A stretch of DNA of 64,000 bases, taken from Mesorhizobium sp. WSM4904. Lineage in GTDB: Bacteria; Pseudomonadota; Alphaproteobacteria; Rhizobiales; Rhizobiaceae. The position numbers and the translations under genes were made by a program. The notes beneath the pieces are model-generated. The model ran no database searches, was not told the DNA's origin, and was given only the letters and a program-made list of their open reading frames with translations. The DNA lies in the NCBI RefSeq assembly GCF_029674545.1, contig NZ_CP121354.1, forward strand, positions 2,489,001-2,553,000. The letters are read 5' to 3'. Position 1 is the stretch's first letter; each line of letters begins with the position of its first letter. Positions 4,857-61,995 of the stretch are shown here, piece after piece.

Positions 4857-6500
4857 CTAGTGCTCGATCGGCCCCTTGGGTGACACAAGGGCCGTGCCCG
4901 CCGTCGTCGGGCGTTCGATCATGCGGCGCACGCGCGGCGGGTTCTCGCCGCTGTGCAGCGCGCGGATGCGCTCGCCAACCACGGCGTCGGCATGGGTAGC
5001 GCGCCTGTTGTGGCGGATGTACTCGACCCAGGTCGGCGTGTGGTAGTGCTCGATCCAGATGCCGGGATTTTCGAGATCGCGGGCGAGCGTCCAGTTGCGG
5101 GCGCCGTCGCGGCGGCGGATGCGGCCGCGCTCGGCCATGGTGGCGAGGAATTCCGGAACGTCCTCTTCGCGGATGATGTATTCGATCATGATGGCGATCG
5201 GGCCGCTGCGCGGCTTCAAATCGAGCGCCAGCATCGGCTCCTTGAACCGGTTGAGCGGATCGAGATTGAGAGCGGTCTGCTGCGGCAGCGGCAGGATGAA
5301 GCCGATGGCGCCGCCCGCCAGCATCGCGACCGCCGCGACCATCAAGGCGGTCTCCGCGCCGTGGGCGTCGGCGACGACGCCCCAGATCCAGCTGCCCAGC
5401 GCGATGCCGCCGAACGTCGCCGTCTGGTAGATCGACAGCACGCGGCCGACCACCCAGCGCGGCGTCGACATCTGCACCGTGACGTTGAAATGCGAGAGCG
5501 CGATCACCCAGCAGGCGCCGCCGACGAGCAGGCCGGCCGACGCCTGCCAGGCATTGTGGCTGACGGCGGCATTGAAGGCACAAAGCGCGAAACCGGCGAA
5601 GGCGGCGCGCACCATCGTCTCGCTGGACAGCAATTGCCGCAGCCGCACGCTGATCAGCGCGCCGCCGACCGCGCCGATGCCGAAGGCGCCGAGCATGATG
5701 CCGTAGGTCAGCGCGTCGCCCTTGACGACGTCGCGCGCCACCAGCGGCAGGAGCGCCAGCACCGCGCCGGCGCTGAAGCCGAAGGCGAAACCCCGAACCA
5801 GCACCTTGGCGATATTGGGCGACATGGCGACATAGCGCAGGCCGGCGCCCATCGCTGCGCCGAGCGCCTCGCGCGGCAGGGTCGGCGCCGGCACCTCCGG
5901 CCTCCAGCGGAACAGTACGACGATCAGGCCGATATAGCTGACGGCGTTGGCGGCGAAGGCCGCCGCCGCGCCCGCGGCAGCGACGATGATGCCGCCGATC
6001 GCAGGGCCAACGCTGCGTGTGATGTTGAAGCCCATCGAGTTGAGCGCGATCGCCGCCGGCACCTTGGCGCGCGGCACCATGTCGCCGACCGAGGCCTGCC
6101 ATGACGGGCTGTTCAGCGCCGTTCCGCTGTCGATCAGGAATGTGAAGGCCAGCAGCGTCCACGGCGTCATCCACCCGAACCAGGTGAACACCGTGAGCAG
6201 CGCCGAGGCGACCAGCATGAAGGTCTGGGCCACCAGCATGACCTTGCGGCGGTTGAAGCTGTCGGCGATGGCGCCGGCAATGAGCGCGAACAGCATGATC
6301 GGCAAGGTGGTCGAGGCCTGGACCAGCGCCACCTGGTAGGAAGAAGTGGCGATGGTGGTCATCATCCAGGCGGCGCCCACGCCCTGGATCAGGCCGCCGA
6401 AATTCGACACCAGGCTTGCCGACCAGACGGCACGGAAGATGCCGTGCCGGAACGGCGCCAGCGCCGAAACGCGTTCGCTTTCCGGCTCGTCGTCGATCAT
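4857..6500 (-). CDS. MFS exporter of the MFS_3/EntS type with a C-terminal soluble extension
   Basis: A 547-residue inner-membrane protein starting at MIDDEPESE (ATG 6498-6500); the frame is open further upstream, but that part overlaps fliQ and has no membrane character. About 12 hydrophobic helices run from roughly residue 20 to 410, beginning FRAVWSASLVSNFGG, which is the start of the 'transmembrane secretion effector' MFS_3 group related to the enterobactin exporter EntS. Roughly the last 120 residues (from about PIAIMIEYII) are soluble and resemble a ferredoxin-like, antibiotic-monooxygenase-type fold with HYHTPTWVEY. The substrate is unknown. The gene follows fliQ on the same strand after 197 bases, in the place where flhA lies in related genera. 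Confidence 0.82.
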   Translation of the reverse strand: MIDDEPESERVSALAPFRHGIFRAVWSASLVSNFGGLIQGVGAAWMMTTIATSSYQVALVQASTTLPIMLFALIAGAIADSFNRRKVMLVAQTFMLVASALLTVFTWFGWMTPWTLLAFTFLIDSGTALNSPSWQASVGDMVPRAKVPAAIALNSMGFNITRSVGPAIGGIIVAAAGAAAAFAANAVSYIGLIVVLFRWRPEVPAPTLPREALGAAMGAGLRYVAMSPNIAKVLVRGFAFGFSAGAVLALLPLVARDVVKGDALTYGIMLGAFGIGAVGGALISVRLRQLLSSETMVRAAFAGFALCAFNAAVSHNAWQASAGLLVGGACWVIALSHFNVTVQMSTPRWVVGRVLSIYQTATFGGIALGSWIWGVVADAHGAETALMVAAVAMLAGGAIGFILPLPQQTALNLDPLNRFKEPMLALDLKPRSGPIAIMIEYIIREEDVPEFLATMAERGRIRRRDGARNWTLARDLENPGIWIEHYHTPTWVEYIRHNRRATHADAVVGERIRALHSGENPPRVRRMIERPTTAGTALVSPKGPIEH

Positions 6501-6697
6501 TACCGCTGTCCCGCCTTCATCTGCCGTGTTGCATTTCGCCGCGCGCCAGGACCGCGCCGACGACTCGCCAAAGGATCGCGGTCCAACAACAGTAAGGCAA
6601 AGGCGAAAATGCGTCGGTGAAGCTTTAAGCCAAGCATCTTGCCGGTCTGGACCAAACTTTTGCTGCTTCGCCCGGGCAGGCTGCCCGCAGCCGTTGG
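6501..6697. other. intergenic gap between fliQ and the MFS gene, no flhA remnant seen
   Basis: 197 bases lie between the fliQ stop and the proposed MFS start. I see no open frame resembling the start of flhA or fliR, and no clear terminator. The gap presumably contains the MFS promoter. Confidence 0.5.
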
Positions 6698-6964
6698 TCA
6701 GAATCCGTGCTCGATGCGCTCGAAGATGACGTTGGTGAAGGCCGAGATCTGGCTGCCGATGAACGGCCCGGTAAGCGCCACCACCAGCATGATGGCGACG
6801 ATCTTGGGCACGAAGGTGAGCGTGATTTCCTGGATCTGTGTCAGCGCCTGGATCAGCGCGATACCGATGCCGACCGCCATCGCCACCAGCACCACGGGGG
6901 CGGAGGCGGTGAGCACGGTCCACACCGCGTATTGGACGATATCGAGGGCGTCGGCCTCGTTCAT
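6698..6964 (-). CDS. fliQ: flagellar export apparatus protein FliQ
   Basis: An 88-residue protein with two hydrophobic hairpin helices (about 15-40 and 50-75) and the family segment ALIQALTQIQEITLTFVPK, typical of FliQ, a minor subunit of the export gate in the basal-body MS ring. It is the last gene of the flgE-flgK-flgL-flaF-flbT-flgD unit, separated from flgD by 127 bases that hold two palindromes. In Sinorhizobium and Agrobacterium flhA and fliR follow at this position; here an MFS exporter gene follows instead. Confidence 0.95.
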   Translation of the reverse strand: MNEADALDIVQYAVWTVLTASAPVVLVAMAVGIGIALIQALTQIQEITLTFVPKIVAIMLVVALTGPFIGSQISAFTNVIFERIEHGF

Positions 6965-6991
6965 GGGCAGACCCTTATAGAACCGGCCAAA

Positions 6992-7025
6992 GCAGATCGC
7001 GTGAAAAAGGATTCACGCGGTCTGC
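6992..7025. repeat. imperfect palindrome between flgD and fliQ
   Basis: The arms gcagatcgcgtgaa and ttcacgcggtctgc enclose a short A-rich loop. Sequences of this kind recur between genes in rhizobia. It could act as a transcript hairpin or be a small repeat element. Confidence 0.6.
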
Positions 7026-7044
7026 CTTGGGTTTCTTGATTTTG

Positions 7045-7091
7045 AGCATGTCTTTCGTCCCGAACCCGGATTCACTTTCGGGAGACATGCT
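7045..7091. repeat. rhizobial-type intergenic palindrome ending at the flgD stop codon
   Basis: The outer arms agcatgtct and agacatgct are perfect complements, with an inner cccgaa/ttcggg pair. The layout matches a palindromic repeat family common between genes in rhizobia and Brucella. It abuts the flgD stop codon (7092-7094) and separates flgD from fliQ. Confidence 0.65.
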
Positions 7092-7499
7092 TCAGGCGGC
7101 CGGCTTGATCGAGACACCTGCGCCAACGGGGACTTCAGTGCCGTCCTGCAGCACGGCGATCAGGCCGCTGCTGGCGAGCTTCACCGAAGCCACGGTTCCC
7201 GTGGTCTTGCCGTCGGCGGATGTGATCGAGCGGCCGATCAGCGCGTCGGCCTGCGACAGCGCCGAGGACTGCATGATCTGGTCGAGCTTGCTGTTGGTCT
7301 GAACTGATTGCTCGACCTGCGAAAAGGTCGCGAGCTGGGCGACGTATTGCGTGGAATCCATCGGCTTGGTCGGATCCTGGTTCTTCATCTCGGCGATCAG
7401 AAGCTTCAGGAACGACTGGTAGTCGACGGCGGTCTTCGATGTCTGCTGGCTGGCCTGGTTGGCGCCAACGGGGATCGTCGTTGTCATATCCACGGCCAT
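7092..7499 (-). CDS. flgD: flagellar hook cap / hook assembly protein FlgD
   Basis: A 135-residue protein, short for the family, as in other rhizobia. The N-terminal FlgD core is clear: YQSFLKLLIAEMKNQDPTKP followed by STQYVAQLATFSQVEQ. This part caps the growing hook and helps FlgE subunits polymerise. The Ig-like C-terminal domains of enteric FlgD are largely absent. The start MAVDMTTT at 7499 is chosen because GGGAG lies 7 bases upstream and the flbT stop is one base away; a longer upstream frame would overlap flbT. Translation is probably coupled to flbT. Confidence 0.93.
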   Translation of the reverse strand: MAVDMTTTIPVGANQASQQTSKTAVDYQSFLKLLIAEMKNQDPTKPMDSTQYVAQLATFSQVEQSVQTNSKLDQIMQSSALSQADALIGRSITSADGKTTGTVASVKLASSGLIAVLQDGTEVPVGAGVSIKPAA

Positions 7500-7500
7500 C

Positions 7501-7938
7501 TTATGCTCCCACAGCCAGCGCGCGCGGCGCTTCCGGAATGTCGTCATTGCCGCCAAGCGCCTGGCGCTCGAGCGGGTAGAGCGCGCGGATCGCCTTCAGC
7601 GCATCGTAGATGTGATCCTCGCCGACCATGCGGTCGATCTGCTTCAGCGCGTTGCAGATGTCCTGATTGTCGAAGCTTGCAATCAGCATCGGCAGCGAGC
7701 GGCGGAACATGTCGCGCGCCTCGGAGGCGCCCAACGGATTGATCAGCATGATCTGCACGATGAAGTAGAGCTGCCTTAGCGGCGTCGAGGCCTGCTCAGC
7801 CTGGATAACGTGGCTTTCCAGAAGGAACTGGACGTCGTTCATCAGCTCGATCGTGACCTTGCGGTCGACGCGGATGACGGCGCCGTTGATGTAGATCTTC
7901 TCGTTCGGCTTTAGCGAGATCTTCAGCGTGTTGGTCAT
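7501..7938 (-). CDS. flbT: flagellin synthesis repressor FlbT
   Basis: A 145-residue protein beginning MTNTLKISLKPNEKIYING, with IELMNDVQFLLE, the standard FlbT N-terminus. In Caulobacter FlbT acts after transcription, on the 5' leader of flagellin mRNA; in rhizobia and Brucella it works with FlaF to tune flagellin output. The start ATG overlaps the flaF stop as ATGA, so translation is coupled, and flgD starts one base after its stop. A candidate target hairpin lies in the leader of the second flagellin gene at 22767-22787. Confidence 0.95.
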   Translation of the reverse strand: MTNTLKISLKPNEKIYINGAVIRVDRKVTIELMNDVQFLLESHVIQAEQASTPLRQLYFIVQIMLINPLGASEARDMFRRSLPMLIASFDNQDICNALKQIDRMVGEDHIYDALKAIRALYPLERQALGGNDDIPEAPRALAVGA

Positions 7939-8313: not shown

Positions 8314-9363
8314 TCAGGTAAGGTAGTTCAGCAGGCTGAGCTGCTGCAGGCGCGCGGTCAAGGCGAAGGACGTTTCGATATGCTGGGTCAGATCGGCCAC
8401 TCGGGTGGCGGCCTCCGCGGGGTCGACGCCCTCGAGGTCGACGATATGCTTCTCGAAGAGATCGACCTGGGTCTTCATGCGGTCGCTCGCATCGGACACG
8501 CGCTTCTGGGCAAGGCCGACGTCGGAGCGGACCTGGACTAGGCCGCCGATGGCTTCGCCGACCAGCCCCTGCGCACGGGTGATGATCGTGTTCCGAGCGG
8601 CTTCGCTGATGTTGCCGGTAACGAGCGTGCTGACCATGGCGGCCGCCATGGCGAGCTTGCGGATGCCCTGTTCGTTGGCGCTGACGGAGGTCTGCGTGGT
8701 CTCGTTCAGCGAAATGCGGCTGGTGATCTGGTCGTCGGTGGCGCTCGACCAGTTGGCCTGCCAGCCGGAACCCAGGAACTGCGGCTCGACCTGAGTGGTG
8801 ATGAAGTCGTCCATCTGGGCCGCAGTGATGTTGGCGGCTGCCGGGTCGCTCTGGGTGAAGCCGAAATAACTGGTGAAGGCCGCGTCGAACGCTGCCTTGG
8901 CGGGCGAGCCGGCGGCGCTGAAATCGTCGATCGGCTTGACGTCGGTGTTCGTGCCGGCAAACAGATACTCGCCGTTGACGCTGGTGTTGAGAATGCCCGT
9001 CATCTGCTGCAGCGCCGAGGTGCCGGCAGTCCGCAGCACGCTGGTCGAGGAGTCGCCCGACACGCCCGTGGTCAGCGCGGACAGGAAGTTCTGCGCGACA
9101 TCGGAGAGCTGGCCGAGCGAGTCCTGGGTCGATGTCAGCCGGGCGCCGACCAGCGCGTTGGAATCGACGATACCGTTCAGCCGGTCGAGGTCGCGCTGGA
9201 AGGTGACGGCCTGGGTCGTGCGGCCGCCAAGCGCCAGACCGACATCCGCGACCTGGCCTGTCTGGGATTCCTTCGTCGCTTTGACGAGGTCGGCCTGCAT
9301 GCGCATCTGCTGATAGCGCAGGGCGTTGGAGATCGCGGCTGAGGAAACGGCCGTGGCTTTCAT
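8314..9363 (-). CDS. flgL: flagellar hook-filament junction protein FlgL
   Basis: A 349-residue protein with the flagellin-like coiled-coil termini of FlgL: SNALRYQQMRMQADLVKA at the N-terminus and VGLAQKRVSDASDRMKTQVDLFEKHI near the C-terminus. It forms the second junction zone between hook and filament in the extracellular axial structure. It lies 3 bases downstream of flgK. As is usual for axial proteins there is no signal peptide; export is through the flagellar type III apparatus. Confidence 0.94.
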   Translation of the reverse strand: MKATAVSSAAISNALRYQQMRMQADLVKATKESQTGQVADVGLALGGRTTQAVTFQRDLDRLNGIVDSNALVGARLTSTQDSLGQLSDVAQNFLSALTTGVSGDSSTSVLRTAGTSALQQMTGILNTSVNGEYLFAGTNTDVKPIDDFSAAGSPAKAAFDAAFTSYFGFTQSDPAAANITAAQMDDFITTQVEPQFLGSGWQANWSSATDDQITSRISLNETTQTSVSANEQGIRKLAMAAAMVSTLVTGNISEAARNTIITRAQGLVGEAIGGLVQVRSDVGLAQKRVSDASDRMKTQVDLFEKHIVDLEGVDPAEAATRVADLTQHIETSFALTARLQQLSLLNYLT

Positions 9364-9366
9364 GGA

Positions 9367-10818
9367 TTATCCCACCGCGCTCAAGAGGGAGTCCAGCATG
9401 TCGCTGACGGTCTTCATCATGCGCGCGGACGCCTGATAGGTATGCTCGAGGTCGAGAAGCAGCGACATTTCCTGATCGACATTGACGCCGGTATCGTTCG
9501 ACAGCGCTTCGGCGGTACGCGTGGCCAGCGCCTCCTTGGCGTCGGCATTGGTCGACGCCTGCTGGCGCACGCCTTCGAACCAGCCGATGGCGTTGGCGGC
9601 ATAGTCCGAGACGCTGGAGCTGACGGTGATGCCGGCCGACGTGTCGAAGGCCATCGGCTGATCGAGCCGGTTGCCGTAGGCAATCAAAAGGTCCGAGTAG
9701 GAAGCGCCGCCGGTGTTCGAAATATAGGCCGCGCCGTTGGCGCCGCCATCGCGCAGCAGCGACGGGTTGCCGCCGGCGCTCGGATCAAACGCGGCATTGA
9801 CGCTGATCGAGCCGGCCAGACCGTTGACCAGGGTGCCGGCGGCGGGAATGGCCGGGGCGCCGGACCAGGTGAACAGGCCCGTCGCGTTGGGCTGAGAGGG
9901 TGCCGTCTCGGCAAAGGCCGTGATCAGGCCACGCGCGATCTCGTCGAGCTGGGCCTGCATGGTCGCGGCGACGTCGTCGCGCAGCTTCAGCATGCCGGCA
10001 AGCTTGCCGTCGGCGGTGGCGCTGTCGCCGGTGCCTGCCGAAAGCGGCACATTGTCGATGTAGATCGTGTTGCCGGGCGTGCCGGCGGTGTAGCCGGCCG
10101 AAGGCGTGAAGGTCACCGACCGCGGCACCGTCTCGAACAGCGTCGTGCCGTCCTTGGTGGTGATGACCATGTCGTTGTCGCCGCGCGTGAAGGTCGAGAC
10201 GGGGACATATTCGGCGATCTTCTTCAGAAGCGCGTCGCGCTGATCGAGCGCGTCGGACACATCCGTGCCCGAGCGCGTGCCCGAGATGACGGCCTTGTTG
10301 GCGTCCTGGAATTGGCTGAGCAGCGAGTTGAGGTCGTCGACCGCGGTGGCGATCTGGCCATCGGTCTGGGTGCGGAAGTCCTGGATCGCCGTGGTGCCGC
10401 CATTGAGCGAATTCACCACCTGCTTGGCGGCATCGATGACGCTGGTGGCGAGGGTCTGGTTCGACGGCGTCGTGGCGTAGAGCTGCAGCTGCTGCTGCAG
10501 GTTGGCGATCGCGGTCGACGGGGACGATGCGTTATCGACGCCGTTGACCGAGAGGTCGAGCTGATCCATGCCGCTGTAGAGCGCGCTCTGGCCGCTCCAT
10601 GCCGACAGCGCGGAAAGGTTCTGCCGGAACAGAAGGTCGTTCGCGGCGCGCTGTATCTCCACCGATCGCGCGCCGGGCGCCGTGCTGGTGACGACGGCGA
10701 CGCGACGGGCATAATCCGGGTTGGATGCGTCGGCTACGTTGCGCGACACGACGCTGGTTTGCTTGGATGTGGCCAGGAGCGCCGACTGGGCGATGCTTAA
10801 TGCGGTAGAAAGGGACAT
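9367..10818 (-). CDS. flgK: flagellar hook-associated protein FlgK
   Basis: A 483-residue axial protein. The N-terminus MSLSTALSIAQSALLATSKQ with NVADASNPDYARR is the conserved FlgK helix and rod-type loop; the C-terminus NDTGVNVDQEMSLLLDLEHT and YQASARMMKTVSDMLDSLL is the matching coil. FlgK is the first hook-filament junction protein. It sits 31 bases after flgE and 3 bases before flgL. There are no cysteines, consistent with exported flagellar parts. Confidence 0.95.
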   Translation of the reverse strand: MSLSTALSIAQSALLATSKQTSVVSRNVADASNPDYARRVAVVTSTAPGARSVEIQRAANDLLFRQNLSALSAWSGQSALYSGMDQLDLSVNGVDNASSPSTAIANLQQQLQLYATTPSNQTLATSVIDAAKQVVNSLNGGTTAIQDFRTQTDGQIATAVDDLNSLLSQFQDANKAVISGTRSGTDVSDALDQRDALLKKIAEYVPVSTFTRGDNDMVITTKDGTTLFETVPRSVTFTPSAGYTAGTPGNTIYIDNVPLSAGTGDSATADGKLAGMLKLRDDVAATMQAQLDEIARGLITAFAETAPSQPNATGLFTWSGAPAIPAAGTLVNGLAGSISVNAAFDPSAGGNPSLLRDGGANGAAYISNTGGASYSDLLIAYGNRLDQPMAFDTSAGITVSSSVSDYAANAIGWFEGVRQQASTNADAKEALATRTAEALSNDTGVNVDQEMSLLLDLEHTYQASARMMKTVSDMLDSLLSAVG

Positions 10819-10849
10819 GCGGGTCTTTCACGGGCTGGCGCCCGATGGG

Positions 10850-12106
10850 TTATCTCTTCAGGTTGACGAGGACGTCCATGAGGTCGGAACCGGTCTGGAA
10901 GACTTTCGAATTGGCGGTGTAGCTGCGCTGCGCCGCGATCATGTTGGTCAGTTCCTCGGCGATGTCGACGTTGGAATTTTCGAGCGCGCCGGAAACGACC
11001 GAACCGAGTTTTCCTTCATTGGCAAAGCCGATGCGAACGGCGCCGGAGTCGGCGCTCTGCACATAGACGTTGCCCGGCATCGCAGTGAGGTTGTCGGGGC
11101 TCTGAACGTCGGCCAGCGGTATCTTGTAGAGCGGCTTGGTAGTGCCGTCCTGGTACTGCGCGTAGATGACGCCGTCCTGGCTGATCTGGATTTTCTCGAT
11201 CGTGCTCGGCGGATTGCCGTTGACCTTGGCGTCGGAGACCGTGAAACCGGTGCCGAGCTGGGTCAGCTTGGAGAGATCGAGGTTGAGGGTCGAGCCGTTC
11301 GGCACGGCAAAGGAGATGCCCGTGGTCGCGCCGGTCAGCTTGCCTGTGGTGGTGTCGAAGGTGAGATTGGCCGTACCCAGCGCGCCGCCCGTATAAGGGA
11401 AGGATGTGCCGGGGGTCGCCTTCGACTGGTCGAAGACCGAGACCTGCCAGGTGCCCGAACCGGTGTTGGTGAAATAGACGTCGAGCAGCACCTTGTTGCC
11501 GAGATTGTCATAGGCGACCAGCGAAGACTTCGAGGTGTATTCGGCGGTCGCGCTGTTGGTGGAGGGCAGGCTGCCCGCTGCGACCGGCGTCGCGCCCGCC
11601 GGCAGGTTGCCGGTGAAATTGCCTTCCGTGCTCGGCGTCGCCGTCATCTCCTGATCGGAGATCTGCACCGGCACCAGGCCCTCGAAGCCGTTCGCGGTCG
11701 CGGCCGGATCGCCGTTGGCGTAGCTGTAAGCCATCAGCTGGTAGCCGGCGGCATTGACCAGCCGACCCTGGGCGTCCGGAACGAAGGCGCCGGCGCGGGT
11801 GAGGTAAGGGGTGCCGCTCGGGTCCTGCACGACGAAGAAGCCGTCGCCGTTGACGGCGAGGTCCGATACCGAGGTGGTGTATTGCAAGACGCCCTGCGAG
11901 CTGACGGCGGAACGGATGGTCGTCGTGACGCCGCCCGAATTGTAGGCGCCGCCCGTGCTCGGCATGATGAGCGTCGAGAACTCGGCGGAGGAACGCTTGT
12001 AGCCGGTGGTGTCGGAGTTCGCGATGTTGTCGGCCACCGTGGACAAGCGGTTGGCCTGCGCGTTCATACCGGAGACGCCGGTCCGCATCATTCCATAGAG
12101 GCTCAT
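10850..12106 (-). CDS. flgE: flagellar hook protein FlgE
   Basis: A 418-residue hook subunit. The N-terminal rod signature MSLYGMMRTGVSGMNAQANR followed by NIANSDTTGYKRSS and the C-terminal ENSNVDIAEELTNMIAAQRS with SYTANSKVFQTGSDLM define the FlgE/F/G family; the long variable centre identifies it as hook rather than rod. It is the first gene of the flgE-flgK-flgL-flaF-flbT-flgD-fliQ unit. The shared CRCAAG-N10-TA element lies 34 bases upstream of the start. Rem, encoded just upstream, is the expected activator. Confidence 0.95.
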   Translation of the reverse strand: MSLYGMMRTGVSGMNAQANRLSTVADNIANSDTTGYKRSSAEFSTLIMPSTGGAYNSGGVTTTIRSAVSSQGVLQYTTSVSDLAVNGDGFFVVQDPSGTPYLTRAGAFVPDAQGRLVNAAGYQLMAYSYANGDPAATANGFEGLVPVQISDQEMTATPSTEGNFTGNLPAGATPVAAGSLPSTNSATAEYTSKSSLVAYDNLGNKVLLDVYFTNTGSGTWQVSVFDQSKATPGTSFPYTGGALGTANLTFDTTTGKLTGATTGISFAVPNGSTLNLDLSKLTQLGTGFTVSDAKVNGNPPSTIEKIQISQDGVIYAQYQDGTTKPLYKIPLADVQSPDNLTAMPGNVYVQSADSGAVRIGFANEGKLGSVVSGALENSNVDIAEELTNMIAAQRSYTANSKVFQTGSDLMDVLVNLKR

Positions 12107-53943: not shown

Positions 53944-54048
53944 AATCTATTACTAACGCTCATTGATCCGTGATGCAATTTCGTTTGATTTTTTCCATGT
54001 GGAGGCGGATAAGCCGGGCACCTCAAAATATTGCCGGGAGAGCGGGCC

Positions 54049-55239
54049 ATGGCCGCCGAGAAGAACGCCTTCGTCTGGAACGATCCTTTCCTGATCGAGG
54101 ACCAGCTTTCGGAAGACGAACGCATGGTGCGCGACGGCGCGGCCGCGTTCGCGGCCGACAAGCTCGCGCCGCGGATCGAGGAAGCCTATGCCGACGAGAA
54201 GACCGATCCGTCGATCTTTCGCGAGATGGGCGAGGCTGGGCTGCTCGGCATCACCATTCCGGAGGAATATGGCGGGCTCGGCGCCAACTACGTGACCTAC
54301 GGGCTGGTCGCGCGCGAGGTCGAGCGCATCGATTCCGGCTACCGCTCGATGATGAGCGTGCAGTCGTCGCTGGTCATGTATCCGATCCATGCCTACGGCT
54401 CGGAAGAGCAGCGCAAGAAGTACCTGCCGAAGCTTGCCTCCGGCGAATGGATCGGCTGCTTCGGCCTGACCGAGCCGGATGCCGGCTCCGATCCGGGCGG
54501 CATGAAGACGCGCGCCGAGAAGACGGCGGATGGCTACAAGCTTTCGGGCTCCAAAATGTGGATTTCCAACGCGCCGATCGCCGACGTCTTCGTCGTCTGG
54601 GCAAAGTCGGCGGCACATGACAACCAGATCCGCGGCTTCGTGCTGGAAAAGGGCTTGAAGGGGCTTTCGGCGCCGAAGATCGGCGGCAAGCTCAGCCTCC
54701 GCGCGTCGATCACCGGCGAGGTGGTGATGGAAGGCGTCGAGGTCGGCGAGGAGGCGCTGCTGCCCAACGTCTCGGGCCTGAAGGGGCCGTTCGGCTGCCT
54801 CAACCGGGCGCGCTACGGCATTTCCTGGGGCGCGATGGGCGCGGCGGAGGATTGCTGGCACCGGGCGCGGCAATACGGCCTCGACAGAAAACAGTTCGGC
54901 AAGCCGCTCGCCGGCACGCAGCTCTTCCAGAAGAAGCTCGCCGACATGCAGACCGAGATCGCGCTCGGCCTGCAGGGGTCATTGCGCGTCGGCCGGCTGA
55001 TGGACGAAGGCAAGATGGCGCCGGAGATGATCTCCATCGTCAAGCGCAACAATTGCGGCAAGGCCCTCGACATCGCCCGCCAGGCACGCGACATGCATGG
55101 CGGCAACGGCATCCAGATCGGCTATCACGTCATGCGCCACGCGCAAAACCTGGAGACGGTCAACACCTATGAAGGCACGCATGACGTGCACGCGCTGATC
55201 CTGGGACGCGCGCAGACGGGCATCCAAGCGTTCTTCTAA
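54049..55239 (+). CDS. gcdH: glutaryl-CoA dehydrogenase
   Basis: A 396-residue flavoenzyme of the acyl-CoA dehydrogenase family. [56 protein letters not shown] and [20 protein letters not shown] are typical of GCDH; the catalytic glutamate is in [14 protein letters not shown]. It oxidises and decarboxylates glutaryl-CoA to crotonyl-CoA in lysine, tryptophan and glutarate breakdown. Start MAAEKN at 54049 has GGGAGAGCGGG just upstream; ATG 54031 is also in frame. Confidence 0.93.
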
Positions 55240-55344: not shown

Positions 55345-58300
55345 ATGGCGATACTGGCAGCCGTCCACCACCTGACCCACTATAAATATGACCGGCCGGT
55401 GGTGCTCGGTCCCCAGGTGATCAGACTGCAGCCGGCGCCGCATTCGCGCACCAAGGTGCTCAGCCACTCGCTGAAGGTCGAGCCGAAGAACCACTTCGTC
55501 AACCTGCAGCAGGACCCGTACGGCAACTTCCTCGCCCGTTTTGTCTTTCCCGAGCCGGTAACGGAGCTGAAGATCGAGGTCGACCTCGTCGCCGACATGA
55601 CGGTCTACAATCCGTTCGACTTCTTCGTCGAGGAATCGGCCGAGAACTTTCCGTTCGAGTATCCGGAAGAAATCAGGCAAGACCTCGCCATCTATCGGGC
55701 GCCGGAGCCGGCCGGGCCGTTGCTGTCGAAATTCCTGGAAAGCATCGACCGCAGCCCGACAAACACCGTCAATTTCCTTGTCGGCCTCAATGCACGGCTG
55801 CAGCGCGAAATCGCCTACATCGTGCGCATGGAGACGGGCGTCTATTCGCCGGAAGAGACGCTTGCCGCGGGCAAAGGTTCGTGCCGGGATTCGAGCTGGC
55901 TTCTGGTGCAGATCCTCAGGAATCTCGGCATCGCCGCCCGCTTCGTCTCCGGCTACCTGATCCAGTTGAAGCCCGACCTCGTCTCGCTCGACGGGCCGCC
56001 GGGCACCTCGGTCGATTTCACCGACCTGCACGCGTGGTGCGAAGTGTACATTCCGGGCGCCGGCTGGATCGGCTTCGACCCGACCTCGGGCCTGCTTACC
56101 GGCGAGAGCCATGTGCCGTTGGCGGCGACGCCGCATTTCCGCAATGCCGCGCCGATCTCCGGCATGGCAAGCTTCGCCAATGTCGATTTCAGCTTCGATA
56201 TGCGGGTCGATCGCATCGCCGAGCATCCGCGCATCACCAAGCCGTTCTCGGACGAGAGCTGGGAAGCGCTCGATGCGTTGGGCAACAAGGTCGATGCGGT
56301 TCTGCAAGCGCAGGACGTGCGGCTCACCATGGGCGGTGAGCCGACCTTCGTGTCGATCGACGATTTCGAGTCCGCCGAATGGAACACGGCCGCCGTCGGT
56401 CCGACCAAGCGCGACAAGGCGGACCAGCTGATCCGCCGGCTGCGCGAACGCTTCGCGCCGGGCGGTTTTCTCCACTACGGCCAAGGCAAGTGGTATCCGG
56501 GCGAGAGTCTGCCGCGTTGGACCTTCTCGCTCTACTGGCGCGCCGACGGCGAGCCGGTGTGGCGCGATCCGTCGCTGATCGCGCGAGAGAACGGCAATAT
56601 CGAGGTCGGGCCGGAGCAGGCCGAAAGCCTGCTCAAAGCGATCGCCGGCGAGCTCGGCATCGAAAAGTCGATGGTCAGCGAGGCTTACGAAGATCCGGCC
56701 GAATGGCTGCTCAAGGAAGGCAAGCTGCCGGACAATGTCGATCCGTCGAATTCGAAGCTGGAGGATCCGGAAGAGCGCAGCCGCATGGCGCGCGTCTTCG
56801 AGCGCGGCTTAACCAAGCCGTCGGGCTACGTGCTGCCGGTCCAGCGCTGGAACAGTCAGGCCGCCGGGCAACGCTGGCGTTCGGAGAAATGGAAGACGCG
56901 CCGCGGCCGCCTGTTCCTGGTTCCGGGCGATTCTCCCGTCGGCTACCGCTTGCCGCTCGGGGCGCTGCCTTACGTGCCGCCGGCGCAATTTCCTTACATC
57001 GTGCCGGTCGATCCGTCGGTGCCGCGCGGCGCGTTGCCGGTGCGGGACGCCATTCTGCAGGAGGCTCCGGCAGGTGGGGCGGACGACATCGCCCGGCAGC
57101 AGCCGGAGGCCTCGTTCACGGCGGCTACCGCGCAGCAGGACCGCGTCGAGCAGCAGCTGACCGAAATCGGCGGCGCGGTGCGCACCGCGCTCACCGTCGA
57201 GCCGCGCGACGGGCGGCTCAGCGTGTTCATGCCGCCGGTCGAGGCGCTGGAAGACTATCTCGAATTGGTGGCGGCGGCCGAGAACGCGGCCAAGGCCATC
57301 GGCCTGCCGGTGCATATCGAGGGCTACGCACCGCCGCACGACCCGCGCCTCAACGTCATCCGCGTCGCGCCCGATCCCGGCGTCATCGAGGTCAACATCC
57401 ACCCGGCCGCCAACTGGCAGGAATGCGTCACCACGACGACCGCTATCTACGAGGAGGCCAGGCAGTCGCGGCTCGGCACCGACAAGTTCATGATCGATGG
57501 CCGCCATACCGGCACCGGCGGCGGCAATCATGTCGTGGTCGGCGGAGCGACGCCCAATGACAGCCCGTTCCTGCGCCGGCCGGACCTGTTGAAGAGCCTG
57601 GTGCTGCAGTGGCAACGGCATCCTTCGCTTTCCTACCTGTTCTCCGGACTGTTCATCGGCCCGACCAGCCAGGCACCGCGCATCGACGAGGCGCGGCACG
57701 ATTCGCTCTACGAGCTCGAGATCGCGCTGGCGCAGGTGCCACACCCGGACAAGGGTGAGGCGCCCTTGCCGTGGCTGGTCGACCGGCTGTTCCGCAACCT
57801 CTTGACCGACGTGACCGGCAACACGCATCGCTCGGAAATCTGCATCGACAAATTGTTCTCGCCGGACGGTCCGACCGGCCGGCTCGGCCTAGTCGAGTTC
57901 CGCGGTTTCGAGATGCCGCCCAATGCGCGCATGAGCCTGGCGCAGCAATTGCTTGTCCGCGCCATCATCGCGCGCGCGTGGAAGAACCCGCTCGACGGCC
58001 GTTTCGTGCGCTGGGGCACTTCGCTGCACGACCGCTTCATGCTGCCGCATTATGTCTGGGCGGATTTTCTGGACGTGCTCGAGGATCTGAAGCTCAACGG
58101 CTTCGACTTCCGCCCGGAATGGTTCGCCGCCCAACTCGAATTCCGCTTCCCGTTCTGCGGCGAAGTGCAGCATGCCGGCGTCAAGCTGGAGCTCAGGCAG
58201 GCGCTGGAGCCCTGGCACGTGATGGGCGAGCAGGGCGCCATCGGCGGCACGGTCCGCTTCGTCGATTCCTCGATCGAGCGGCTGCAGGTGAGGACCGAAG

Positions 58301-58695
58301 GCCTCAACCCGGAGCGCCACGCCATCGTCTGCAACGGCCGCATCGTGCCGATGAAGGTGACCGACAGCAGAGAGGTCGCGGTGGCGGGCGTGCGCTTCAA
58401 GGCCTGGCAGCCGGCATCCGGCCTGCATCCCGCCCTGCCGGTCAACACGCCGCTGGTCTTCGACCTCTACGACCGCTGGTCGGGACGCTCGGTCGGCGGC
58501 TGCGTCTATCACGTCGCGCATCCGGGCGGTCGCAATTACGACACCTTCCCCGTCAACGGCAACGAGGCCGAGGCGCGGCGGCTTGCCCGCTTCGAGCCGC
58601 GCGGCCATACGCCGGGCGGCTATGTGCTGCGCGACGAAGAAGGCTCTGAAGACTTCCCGATGACCCTTGACCTGAGGCGGCCGGCGAGATTCTGA
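55345..58695 (+). CDS. transglutaminase fused to DUF2126 putative amidoligase
   Basis: A 1116-residue cytoplasmic protein. The first 280 residues are a transglutaminase-like domain with the full triad: Cys180 ([10 protein letters not shown]), His229 (DLHAWCEVY) and Asp245 (GFDPTSG). From about 325 on comes the DUF2126 region, classed as a putative glutamine-synthetase-like amidoligase: [72 protein letters not shown] and [14 protein letters not shown] [20 protein letters not shown]. The predicted chemistry is ATP-dependent formation of an amide bond, coupled to a peptidase or transferase domain. It is 6 bases before the ATP-grasp gene, and the three genes form one operon. Confidence 0.88.
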
Positions 58696-58701
58696 TCGAC
58701 C

Positions 58702-61113
58702 ATGGCCAAGGGGAATCAGAAACGGGCGGGCGGAAGGCCGCGGGCGCAGAACCTGCTGGAGCACTATCGGGCGATCGACGGCGTCGTCGACGAGATGGTC
58801 GACGCGGCTGGCAATCCGCGCCCGGCCTGGCGGTCCTTCATCGAGGCGCTGGACGGTCTGGGGGCTGAAACGCTCGGACAGCGTTTTACCCGCGCCGACC
58901 AGTATCTGCGCGATGCCGGGGTCTACTACCGCGTCTACGACAAGGCAGGCGCCAACGAGCGCGAATGGCCGCTGGCGCATGTCCCGCTGCTGATCGATGA
59001 AAAGGAATGGGCCGAGATCAGCGCCGGCCTCGTCCAGCGCGCCGACCTATTCGAAGCGATCCTGGCCGATATCTACGGGCCGAGCCGGCTGATCGAGACC
59101 GGCATCCTGCCGGCCGGGCTGATCGCGGCGAGCCCCGAATACCTGCGCCCTGTCGTCGGCATCCGGCCGGCCAGCGGTCATTTCCTGCATATGGTCGCCT
59201 TCGAGCTCGGCCGCGGGCCGGATGGCCGCTGGTGGGTGCTGGGCGATCGCAACCAGGCGCCGTCAGGCGCGGGTTTCGCGCTGGAGAACCGTGTCGCGAC
59301 GACGCGCGCGCTGTCGGACATCTATGGCGAGCTGCATGTGCACAGGCTCGCCGGCTTCTTCCGCCGCTTCCGCGACGCGCTGAACGGCATGGCGAAGGAA
59401 TCCGGCGGTCGCGTCGCCATCCTGACGCCGGGACCGCTCAACGAAACATATTACGAGCACGCCTATATCGCGCGCTATCTCGGCATCATGCTGCTCGAAG
59501 GCGAGGACCTGACGGTGTCCGGCGGCCGGCTGGTGGTGCGTACCGTTTCGGGCCTGATGCCGGTCGGCGTGCTGTGGCGGCGGCTCGATGCGGCCTTCGC
59601 CGATCCGCTCGAGCTCAAGCCGGACTCGCAGATCGGCACGCCCGGGCTGGTCGAGGCGGTTCGGCGCGGTACCGTCTCGGCCGTCAACGCGCTGGGTTCA
59701 GGCCTGATGGAAACGCGGGCGCTGCTTTCCTTCCTGCCGCGAATTGCGCGGGAATTGCATGGCGAGGAGCTCAAGCTGCCGAGCATCGCCACCTGGTGGT
59801 GCGGGCAGCAGACCGAACGCGACCACGTGCTGGCCAATGTCGACCGCATGGTGATCGGTCCTGCGCTGTCGACGCGGCTCGCCTTCGAGGACGACGGCGC
59901 AACGCGGCTGGGCTCGGCGCTGTCGGCCGGGGAGCGGACGGAGCTGATCGCGCGGATCGAAGCCGACGGCGACGCCTTTGTCGGCCAGGAAGCGGTGACG
60001 CTTTCGACGACGCCGGTCTTCGTCGGCGGCCGGCTGGAGCCACGGCCCGCCAGCCTGCGCGTCTATCTGGCGCGGACGCCGGACGGCTGGACGGTGATGC
60101 CCGGCGGTTTTGCCCGCGTCGGCTTCTCGCTCGACCCGACGGCGATCGCCATGCAGCGCGGCGGCCAGGCGGCGGATGTCTGGGTGGTCAGCGACAGGCC
60201 GGTCGAGCGCGAGACGCTGCTGCCGCAGGAGACTGACGGCTTCACCCGCACCATGCCCGGCAGCCTGCCAAGCCGTGCGGCGGAGAACCTGACCTGGCTC
60301 GGCCGCTACATAGAGCGCTCCGAAGACACGGTGCGCGTGCTTCGCGCCTATCACGTGCGACTTGCCGAAACGTCCGACCCCGAGATGCCGCTGCTCGCCG
60401 ACATCCGGGACTATCTCGAACCGTTCGGCATCGAGGTCGAAACGGCGATCCCGCCAGGGTTGATCAGCACCTTGGACAGCGCCTTCTACAGCGCCGGCCA
60501 GATCCGCGACCGCTTCTCGCCGGACGGCTGGCTGGCGCTGAAGGACCTGTCGAAGACGATCCACAAATTTGCCGACAGGGTGGCGCCCGGCGACGACGCG
60601 ACGCGGGCGATGACGGTGATGCTGCGCAAGCTTGCCGGGTTCTCGGGACTGCTGCACGAGAACATGTACCGCTTCACCGGCTGGCGCTTCCTGGAGATCG
60701 GCCGGCGGCTGGAGCGCGGCATCCAGATCGCCCGCACGCTGGCGCGGCTGACCAGAAACGGTGCGCCGGAAGGCTCGCTCGACATGATGCTGGAGATCGG
60801 CGACAGCGTCATGACGCACCGCCGGCAATATCCGGTGCAGGCCGGGCGTCGAACAGTGATCGACCTTCTGGCGCTCGATCCGCTCAACCCGCGCTCCATC
60901 CTGTTCCAGCTCGAGCGGTTGAAGGCCGAAATCGGCATGCTGCCTTCGGTCGGCGGCGAGGGGCACATGTCGGCCGCAGCGAAAGAGATCCTGCAGCTCA
61001 ACACGGCGATCGCCGTGATGGAGCCCCAGGACATGACCGCGAAGGTGCTCGACGAACTCGCCAACCAGATCGGCGATCTCTACAGCAGTCTCGCCAAGGC
61101 CTATTTCGGGTAG
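58702..61113 (+). CDS. circularly permuted ATP-grasp fused to alpha-E domain
   Basis: An 803-residue fusion. The first 480 or so residues are a circularly permuted ATP-grasp enzyme (DUF404/DUF407 type): YYRVYDKAGANEREWPLAHV, DIYGPSRLIETGILPAGLIA, LAILTPGPLNETYYEHAYIA-like ILTPGPLNETYYEHAYIARY, and EGEDLTVSGGRLVVRTVSG. From about 530 the alpha-helical alpha-E domain (DUF403) follows: LPSRAAENLTWLGRYIERSE and ENMYRFTGWRFLEIGRRLER. In many bacteria the two parts are separate genes; here they are one. The predicted role is ATP-dependent ligation of an amino group to a carboxylate, with an unknown product. Confidence 0.88.
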   Translation: MAKGNQKRAGGRPRAQNLLEHYRAIDGVVDEMVDAAGNPRPAWRSFIEALDGLGAETLGQRFTRADQYLRDAGVYYRVYDKAGANEREWPLAHVPLLIDEKEWAEISAGLVQRADLFEAILADIYGPSRLIETGILPAGLIAASPEYLRPVVGIRPASGHFLHMVAFELGRGPDGRWWVLGDRNQAPSGAGFALENRVATTRALSDIYGELHVHRLAGFFRRFRDALNGMAKESGGRVAILTPGPLNETYYEHAYIARYLGIMLLEGEDLTVSGGRLVVRTVSGLMPVGVLWRRLDAAFADPLELKPDSQIGTPGLVEAVRRGTVSAVNALGSGLMETRALLSFLPRIARELHGEELKLPSIATWWCGQQTERDHVLANVDRMVIGPALSTRLAFEDDGATRLGSALSAGERTELIARIEADGDAFVGQEAVTLSTTPVFVGGRLEPRPASLRVYLARTPDGWTVMPGGFARVGFSLDPTAIAMQRGGQAADVWVVSDRPVERETLLPQETDGFTRTMPGSLPSRAAENLTWLGRYIERSEDTVRVLRAYHVRLAETSDPEMPLLADIRDYLEPFGIEVETAIPPGLISTLDSAFYSAGQIRDRFSPDGWLALKDLSKTIHKFADRVAPGDDATRAMTVMLRKLAGFSGLLHENMYRFTGWRFLEIGRRLERGIQIARTLARLTRNGAPEGSLDMMLEIGDSVMTHRRQYPVQAGRRTVIDLLALDPLNPRSILFQLERLKAEIGMLPSVGGEGHMSAAAKEILQLNTAIAVMEPQDMTAKVLDELANQIGDLYSSLAKAYFG

Positions 61114-61119
61114 GCGGCA

Positions 61120-61995
61120 ATGCTTTATGACATCAGACTCCATCTGCATTACGACTACGCGGCCGCAGCCGGTGGCGGCCGGCATCAGGTGCGCGTGCTG
61201 CCGCAGACGATCGCCGGCGTGCAGCGAGTGATCGCCGCCTCGTTGTCCTTTCAGCCCAATCCGGCCGAACGGGCGGATTTTTCCGATTTCTTCGGCAACA
61301 GCGTCACCGCGATTGCCTTTCGCGACGCGCATGAGGAGCTCGACGTCAGGATGAGCGCAAGGGTGTCGGTCTCGCGGCCGGAACCCGGCCTCGATGTCTC
61401 GCCCGACATCCATGGCTTGAGGGCGGAACTCGACGCGGTGCGTTCGCTGTCGCCCAACGCGCCGCATCATTTCCTTGCCGCCAGCGATCATGTCGGCATC
61501 GATACGGCGATCACCGCCTATGCGCGGGAGAGCCTTGCCGGTTCGGCGGTCGCCACGGCCGTCGATCTCTGCAATCGCATCCACCGTGATTTCACCTATG
61601 ACGGCAAGGCGACGACCGTGCAGACGCGGGCCAGCGACGCCTTCGCGCTGAAACGCGGGGTGTGCCAGGATTTTTCCCACATCATGATCGCCGGCCTGCG
61701 TGGGCTTGGCATCCCCGCCGGTTATGTCAGCGGCTTCCTGCGCACCATTCCGCCCAAGGGCAAGCCGAGGCTCGAAGGCGCCGACGCCATGCATGCCTGG
61801 GTGAAGGCCTGGTGCGGCCGCGATGCCGGCTGGCAGGAATTCGATCCGACCAACGGCATGCGGGCGAGCAACGACCATATCACCGTCGGTTACGGCCGCG
61901 ACTATTCCGATGTCGCGCCGATCGTCGGCGTCCTGAAAACCACCGGCGGCCAAGTCGGCGAGCAAGCGGTCGACGTCATCCCGGTCGCTGCCTGA
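61120..61995 (+). CDS. transglutaminase-like protein of the amidoligase cassette
   Basis: A 291-residue protein with a beta-rich N-terminal domain (LYDIRLHLHYDYAAAAGGG) and a transglutaminase core with Cys182 (RGVCQDFSH), His225 (AMHAWVKAW) and Asp242 (EFDPTNG). It may cut or transfer on the amide bonds made by the two upstream enzymes. It starts 6 bases after the ATP-grasp gene and ends the cassette. Confidence 0.9.
   Translation: MLYDIRLHLHYDYAAAAGGGRHQVRVLPQTIAGVQRVIAASLSFQPNPAERADFSDFFGNSVTAIAFRDAHEELDVRMSARVSVSRPEPGLDVSPDIHGLRAELDAVRSLSPNAPHHFLAASDHVGIDTAITAYARESLAGSAVATAVDLCNRIHRDFTYDGKATTVQTRASDAFALKRGVCQDFSHIMIAGLRGLGIPAGYVSGFLRTIPPKGKPRLEGADAMHAWVKAWCGRDAGWQEFDPTNGMRASNDHITVGYGRDYSDVAPIVGVLKTTGGQVGEQAVDVIPVAA

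Follow-up and report, generated by a model that had tools for sequence, protein, structure and literature searches.

A three-gene DUF2126 cassette of Mesorhizobium with a predicted pseudo-ligase and an apparent dependence on a standalone ATP-grasp

In this study, we found that the ATP-grasp domain encoded by the second gene of a DUF2126 cassette of Mesorhizobium sp. WSM4904 lacks the metal- and ATP-binding residues of its standalone sister family. Judging by these residues, the circularly permuted (CP) ATP-grasp fused to Alpha-E is a conserved pseudo-ligase, predicted to be inactive. Moreover, as far as the sequences indicate, DUF2126 seems to occur only in genomes that also carry an intact standalone CP-ATP-grasp, and the cassette apparently depends on this enzyme. 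Since one ligase of the cassette is predicted to be dead and its working counterpart resides in another operon, the cassette appears to be an accessory addition and not a pathway complete in itself.

Results

The window, that is, the whole stretch of 64,000 nucleotides that was analysed, lies at C1:2489001-2553000 in a genome of 6.65 Mb that consists of a single contig. The three cassette genes lie on the + strand. Gene 1 (55345..58695, +) codes for a transglutaminase-DUF2126 fusion of 1116 aa, gene 2 (58702..61113, +) for a pseudo-CP-ATP-grasp fused to Alpha-E of 803 aa, and gene 3 (61120..61995, +) for a transglutaminase-like protein of 291 aa. Pfam searches, with domain E-values from 0 to 5.7e-17 across the three proteins, recovered the domain make-up proposed in the initial annotation, and the ORF list bears out the gene order and the 6-base gaps between the genes. 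The best named relatives of gene 1, among the best 80 matches listed, belong to Mesorhizobium and share at most 95% identity with it. No Anbu gene was found among the window ORFs at 50-64 kb, and the anti-phage defence models of PADLOC-DB 2.0.0 gave no match to the cassette at E <= 0.01. An acyl-CoA dehydrogenase gene (54031-55239), located on the same strand, stops 105 bases 5' of the cassette, and its co-transcription with the cassette is possible.

In gene 2, the CP-ATP-grasp fold occupies residues 26-497 (58777..60192, +; CP_ATPgrasp_2, 458.6 bits) and the Alpha-E domain residues 522-802 (60265..61107, +; Pfam E-value 1.5e-55, 189.5 bits). The catalytic residues of the former are lost, as established by alignment with the standalone family and structure 3n6x. 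The site of the Glu-x-Asn motif (59242..59250, +) now reads G181-D182-R183; the Glu is present in 1 of 144 fused copies and the Asn in none of them, whereas both are found in 29/29 standalone copies. The first Lys is replaced by R339 (59716..59718, +) and persists in only 2/144 fused copies. The site of the second Lys and the GGYG loop (residues 386-400; 59857..59901, +), where the alignment is gapped, now holds G386; this Lys is kept in 16/144 fused copies and the complete loop in 0/144. Again, the 29 standalone copies retain all three features without exception. Hence, the earlier count of two bond-forming domains is not supported for the fused ATP-grasp. By alignment, the same residues are also missing from a protein of Acidobacteriota and from one of Nitrospirales. 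In the predicted structure of gene 2 (pLDDT 87.7, pTM 0.82), the ATP-grasp/glutathione-synthetase fold is retained, and Alpha-E was matched in all fused relatives of two scans (52/52 and 42/42). Standalone CP-ATP-grasps form one clade with a support of 1.0, and comparison of the 22 loci holding both forms indicates that the fused ATP-grasp diverges faster than the standalone one in 231 of 231 pairs.

Gene 1 comprises Bact_transglu_N (residues 6-83; 55360..55593, +; Pfam E-value 4.3e-26), Transglut_core (residues 132-246; 55738..56082, +) and DUF2126 (residues 278-1111; 56176..58677, +; Pfam, 1349 bits), while gene 3 matches Bact_transglu_N and Transglut_core in Pfam. The catalytic triads had been assigned correctly to the residue. 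C180/H229/D245 of gene 1, within Transglut_core, is kept in 160/161 homologues, the exception being a gap that is present too in the 81-row count; for C182/H225/D242 of gene 3, the figures are 146/146, 146/146 and 145/146 (one gap), respectively. In DUF2126, 23 of 32 chosen positions are invariant among 161 proteins. Thus, active-site loss in most homologues, which the initial annotation had named as grounds for rejecting its proposal, turns out to be true for the ATP-grasp and untrue for the transglutaminases and DUF2126.

Comparison of the predicted structure of gene 1 (pLDDT 76.0, pTM 0.72, with several conserved loops at pLDDT <50) revealed that DUF2126 matches glutamine synthetase (GS) and YbdK. 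The glutamine-synthetase fold spans residues ~300-937, inside DUF2126. No signal was detected at the sequence level, as hhalign comparison of DUF2126 with the GS and GCS2 profiles gave non-significant E-values of 0.25 and 0.62. This predicted fold supports the assignment of DUF2126 as an ATP-dependent amidoligase fold with predicted ligase activity, and provides new evidence for the bond-forming role first ascribed to this domain.

DUF2126 is present in 96 of the 299 genomes sampled from the phylum of the window. As the initial annotation had suggested, we compared the neighbourhoods of DUF2126 homologues, using 160 fetched loci (80 from DUF2126-positive genomes plus the best 80 named loci listed), and all three cassette genes were found together in 144 of them under a loose adjacency rule. 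This recurrence and the Pfam E-values place the cassette beyond chance. The gene 1 fusion appears without the other two genes in 14/160 stretches, some of which reach a contig edge. Gene 3 is absent from one locus (L142) that is cut by a contig end, and in another (L118, genome G203) the transglutaminase and DUF2126 are two adjoining separate genes. The DUF2126 protein of L118 has 713 aa, lacks the transglutaminase half and shares 36% identity with that of the window; it is possibly an older or separate branch.

The cassette is also found on plasmids. Gene 1 was matched by 26 of 72,556 plasmid records (E <= 1e-50), including one from Acidobacteriota (Granulicella) and one from Bacteroidota (Spirosoma), the latter over the first 288 residues only. 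Plasmid NZ_CP116251 of Enterobacter roggenkampii (L216, record 9501-30827) carries a five-gene run that starts with an intact ATP-grasp and Alpha-E and continues with the DUF2126 fusion, the pseudo-ATP-grasp-Alpha-E and the transglutaminase; it includes the whole DUF2126 cassette and is flanked by transposase genes on both sides. A tblastn search (1e-3) found no match to Anbu on this plasmid. We read this five-gene unit as the minimal working set.

A canonical Anbu operon lies in the same genome about 1.66 Mb from the window cassette (locus L006, C1:4206000-4225000). In the coordinates of this locus, it has genes for a standalone CP-ATP-grasp at 6420-7889 and for Alpha-E at 8378-9319, then for a transglutaminase (up to 10128) and, last, for Anbu at 10282-11013. 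Among solved structures, its Anbu best matches a chain named Designed Anbu Protein (E 7e-96), and the match to the Anbu structure 5nyj has an E-value of 5.5e-84. The idea of a complete pathway in one transcript is not supported, as the intact CP-ATP-grasp that seems to accompany DUF2126 sits in this distant operon. Of note, a 106-aa 23S_rRNA_IVP protein (PF05635, E 9.2e-32) is encoded between ATP-grasp and Alpha-E (L006:7987-8307), and short repeats of types GCGAGTAG and CTATTCG flank its gene, as if it had been inserted.

A strong match to CP_ATPgrasp_2 was obtained in 172/299 genomes, namely in 96/96 with DUF2126 and in 76/203 without it (Fisher 8e-31, with genomes treated as independent of phylogeny), and 91 of the 96 DUF2126 genomes have at least two matches. 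Because this profile (PF14403) also matches fused copies, 94 of these were scored separately. The best fused copy reached 1.3e-143 among 52 scanned and 5.2e-159 among 42 scanned, and nine standalone copies ranged from 4.5e-157 to 5.8e-168, slightly overlapping with the fused range. After adjusting the E-value scale, the top match exceeds every fused copy scored in 94/96 DUF2126 genomes. In genome G036, a standalone ATP-grasp is visible within the fetched stretch; in G026, given the overlap of fused and standalone scores, a standalone copy is inferred and not separated by score. Altogether, standalone genes were located within the same fetched stretch in 32/160 loci.

Discussion

We propose, with roughly an even chance of being right, that the cassette is an accessory module that forms and cuts amide bonds and works with a separate core operon in four steps. 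First, the intact CP-ATP-grasp encoded in the core operon at C1:4.21 Mb, which resembles glutathione synthetase, would activate a carboxylate and join it to an amine. Next, as its predicted fold and residue conservation suggest, DUF2126 would form another amide or isopeptide bond at the expense of ATP, presumably on the product of the core CP-ATP-grasp or on its carrier. The two papain-like transglutaminase-fold enzymes, with Cys-His-Asp intact, would then hydrolyse or transfer the bond made by DUF2126; the fusion of one of them to the ligase has a parallel in the bifunctional glutathionylspermidine synthetase/amidase. Finally, the ATP-grasp-Alpha-E pseudo-enzyme, whose residue loss is evident, may bind, scaffold or regulate. 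Much more tentatively, the pseudo-ATP-grasp-Alpha-E might be a non-catalytic carrier or sensor passing the CP-ATP-grasp product to DUF2126 and its fused editor, in a mobile, Anbu-independent five-gene line concerned with an amide metabolite or protein mark under nitrogen limitation.

Nitrogen limitation is the likely setting of the cassette, if the core operon of Pseudomonas putida, which is under NtrC control, is taken as a model. PMC8050072 describes induction of this operon (PP_2685-2688) when ammonium is absent or limiting, with log2 changes on nitrate of 4.44 for PP_2685 and 3.99 for PP_2688, and PMC7801951 lists these genes as ntrB/ntrC-regulated. The same regulation could fit a module that builds and cuts a cyanophycin-like poly-isopeptide or gamma-glutamyl store under nitrogen limitation. 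The pairing of a ligase with a hydrolase also agrees with such a store, as does the finding that, in marine metagenomes, DUF403/404/407 and Bact_transglu_N group with domains of urea metabolism (PMC3597751). We nevertheless find this explanation doubtful. No polymer is known, and nitrogen regulation has been seen for the core operon only. At the window, no sigma-54-like (nitrogen-type) promoter was found 5' of the cassette, and the upstream regions of DUF2126 genes are not enriched in sigma-54-like sites (32/159 versus 57/366 controls).

It is unlikely that the cassette tags substrates for Anbu to degrade or untag. Using as query the Anbu of this genome, which a very divergent Anbu could escape, matches were found in 121/299 genomes; the sole match in the genome of the window is that of L006. 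These matches are distributed above expectation, in 63/96 DUF2126 genomes and 58/203 others, and Anbu adjoins the cassette in 9/160 loci. However, 33 of the 96 DUF2126 genomes show no match to this query, the Enterobacter plasmid unit shows no Anbu match, and the association vanishes once only the 172 genomes with a strong CP-ATP-grasp match are considered, of which 63 have both DUF2126 and Anbu against a chance expectation of about 66 (96 x 119 / 172). We consider Anbu an optional hydrolase of the wider system and not an obligate partner. PMC6376114 reports release of phosphate from ATP by the ATP-grasp of Yersinia bercovieri, no peptidase activity of Anbu on the substrates tested, and no specific interaction of Anbu with its operon partners in pull-down. 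In two of the loci (L066 and L068), which contribute to the case for Anbu, the DUF2126 fusion is followed directly by Anbu, with no pseudo-ATP-grasp-Alpha-E in the stretch; the corresponding genomes have one CP_ATPgrasp_2 match each. Two other genomes (G094 and G233) have an Anbu match and no CP_ATPgrasp_2 match.

A self-sufficient cassette, tagging proteins or making peptides with both ligases active, is in our view very unlikely. The tight gene spacing, the lack of Anbu in the window, the intact triads of both transglutaminases and the preserved ATP-grasp fold would all suit such a cassette, but the ATP-grasp has lost its catalytic residues and, as far as scores separate, an intact paralogue accompanies every one of the 96 DUF2126 genomes. 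Least credible of all is a RiPP-type pathway modifying a ribosomal precursor. A ligase together with papain-like enzymes resembles maturation machinery, but in the 52 loci surveyed no flanking family was shared by more than 8, although a distant or very short precursor could escape such a survey.

This survey covered loci with less than 72% identity in gene 1 and clustered all ORFs of at least 30 residues within 4.5 kb, very short peptides being able to escape BLAST. Its outcome agrees with the initial annotation, which saw no precursor gene alongside the cassette. The cluster found in 8/52 loci resembles a chemotaxis receptor in sequence, and a short-ORF cluster with a median of 126 aa occurs in 7/52. 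Another cluster, in 6/52 loci, resembles what we take to be the metallopeptidase of PF15887. This family occurs in 62/299 genomes, of which 49 also carry DUF2126 (Fisher 7e-18), and sometimes adjoins the cassette; the genome of the window gave no match to it.

Systems combining transglutaminase, GS-like ligase, circularly permuted ATP-grasp and Alpha-E were reportedly predicted to be amidoligase systems by Iyer et al. in 2009. The window cassette shares the domains of those systems and represents the same predicted system, and what may differ here is the pseudo-ligase across 144 copies and the counted, apparent dependence on a standalone enzyme. The domains of the Anbu operon are paralogous to those of the cassette, which lacks Anbu, adds DUF2126 and has a degenerate ATP-grasp fused to Alpha-E. 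Compared with glutamine synthetase and YbdK-type carboxylate-amine ligases, DUF2126 is much larger, is fused to a transglutaminase and gives no sequence-profile signal. Unlike Gss of E. coli (2io7 to 2iob) and YgiC/YjfC, the cassette has a predicted active ligase of the GS type instead of an ATP-grasp, an ATP-grasp fold that is presumably dead, and a transglutaminase-like hydrolase. According to PMC12568646, the fungal E-64 ligase Cp1B (9cjn) is an active enzyme of a fungal pathway, and it is paired with an amide bond synthetase as second ligase and not with DUF2126.

In sum, our analysis adds the pseudo-ligase, which is a candidate novelty, together with an independently observed GS fold, a standalone ATP-grasp on which the cassette apparently depends, and independence from Anbu. 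To our knowledge, a role has been predicted for DUF2126 and Alpha-E proteins for more than 15 years and none has been demonstrated. A ligase predicted to be dead, an apparently constant working sister and a dispensable Anbu would turn this vague pathway into concrete experiments.
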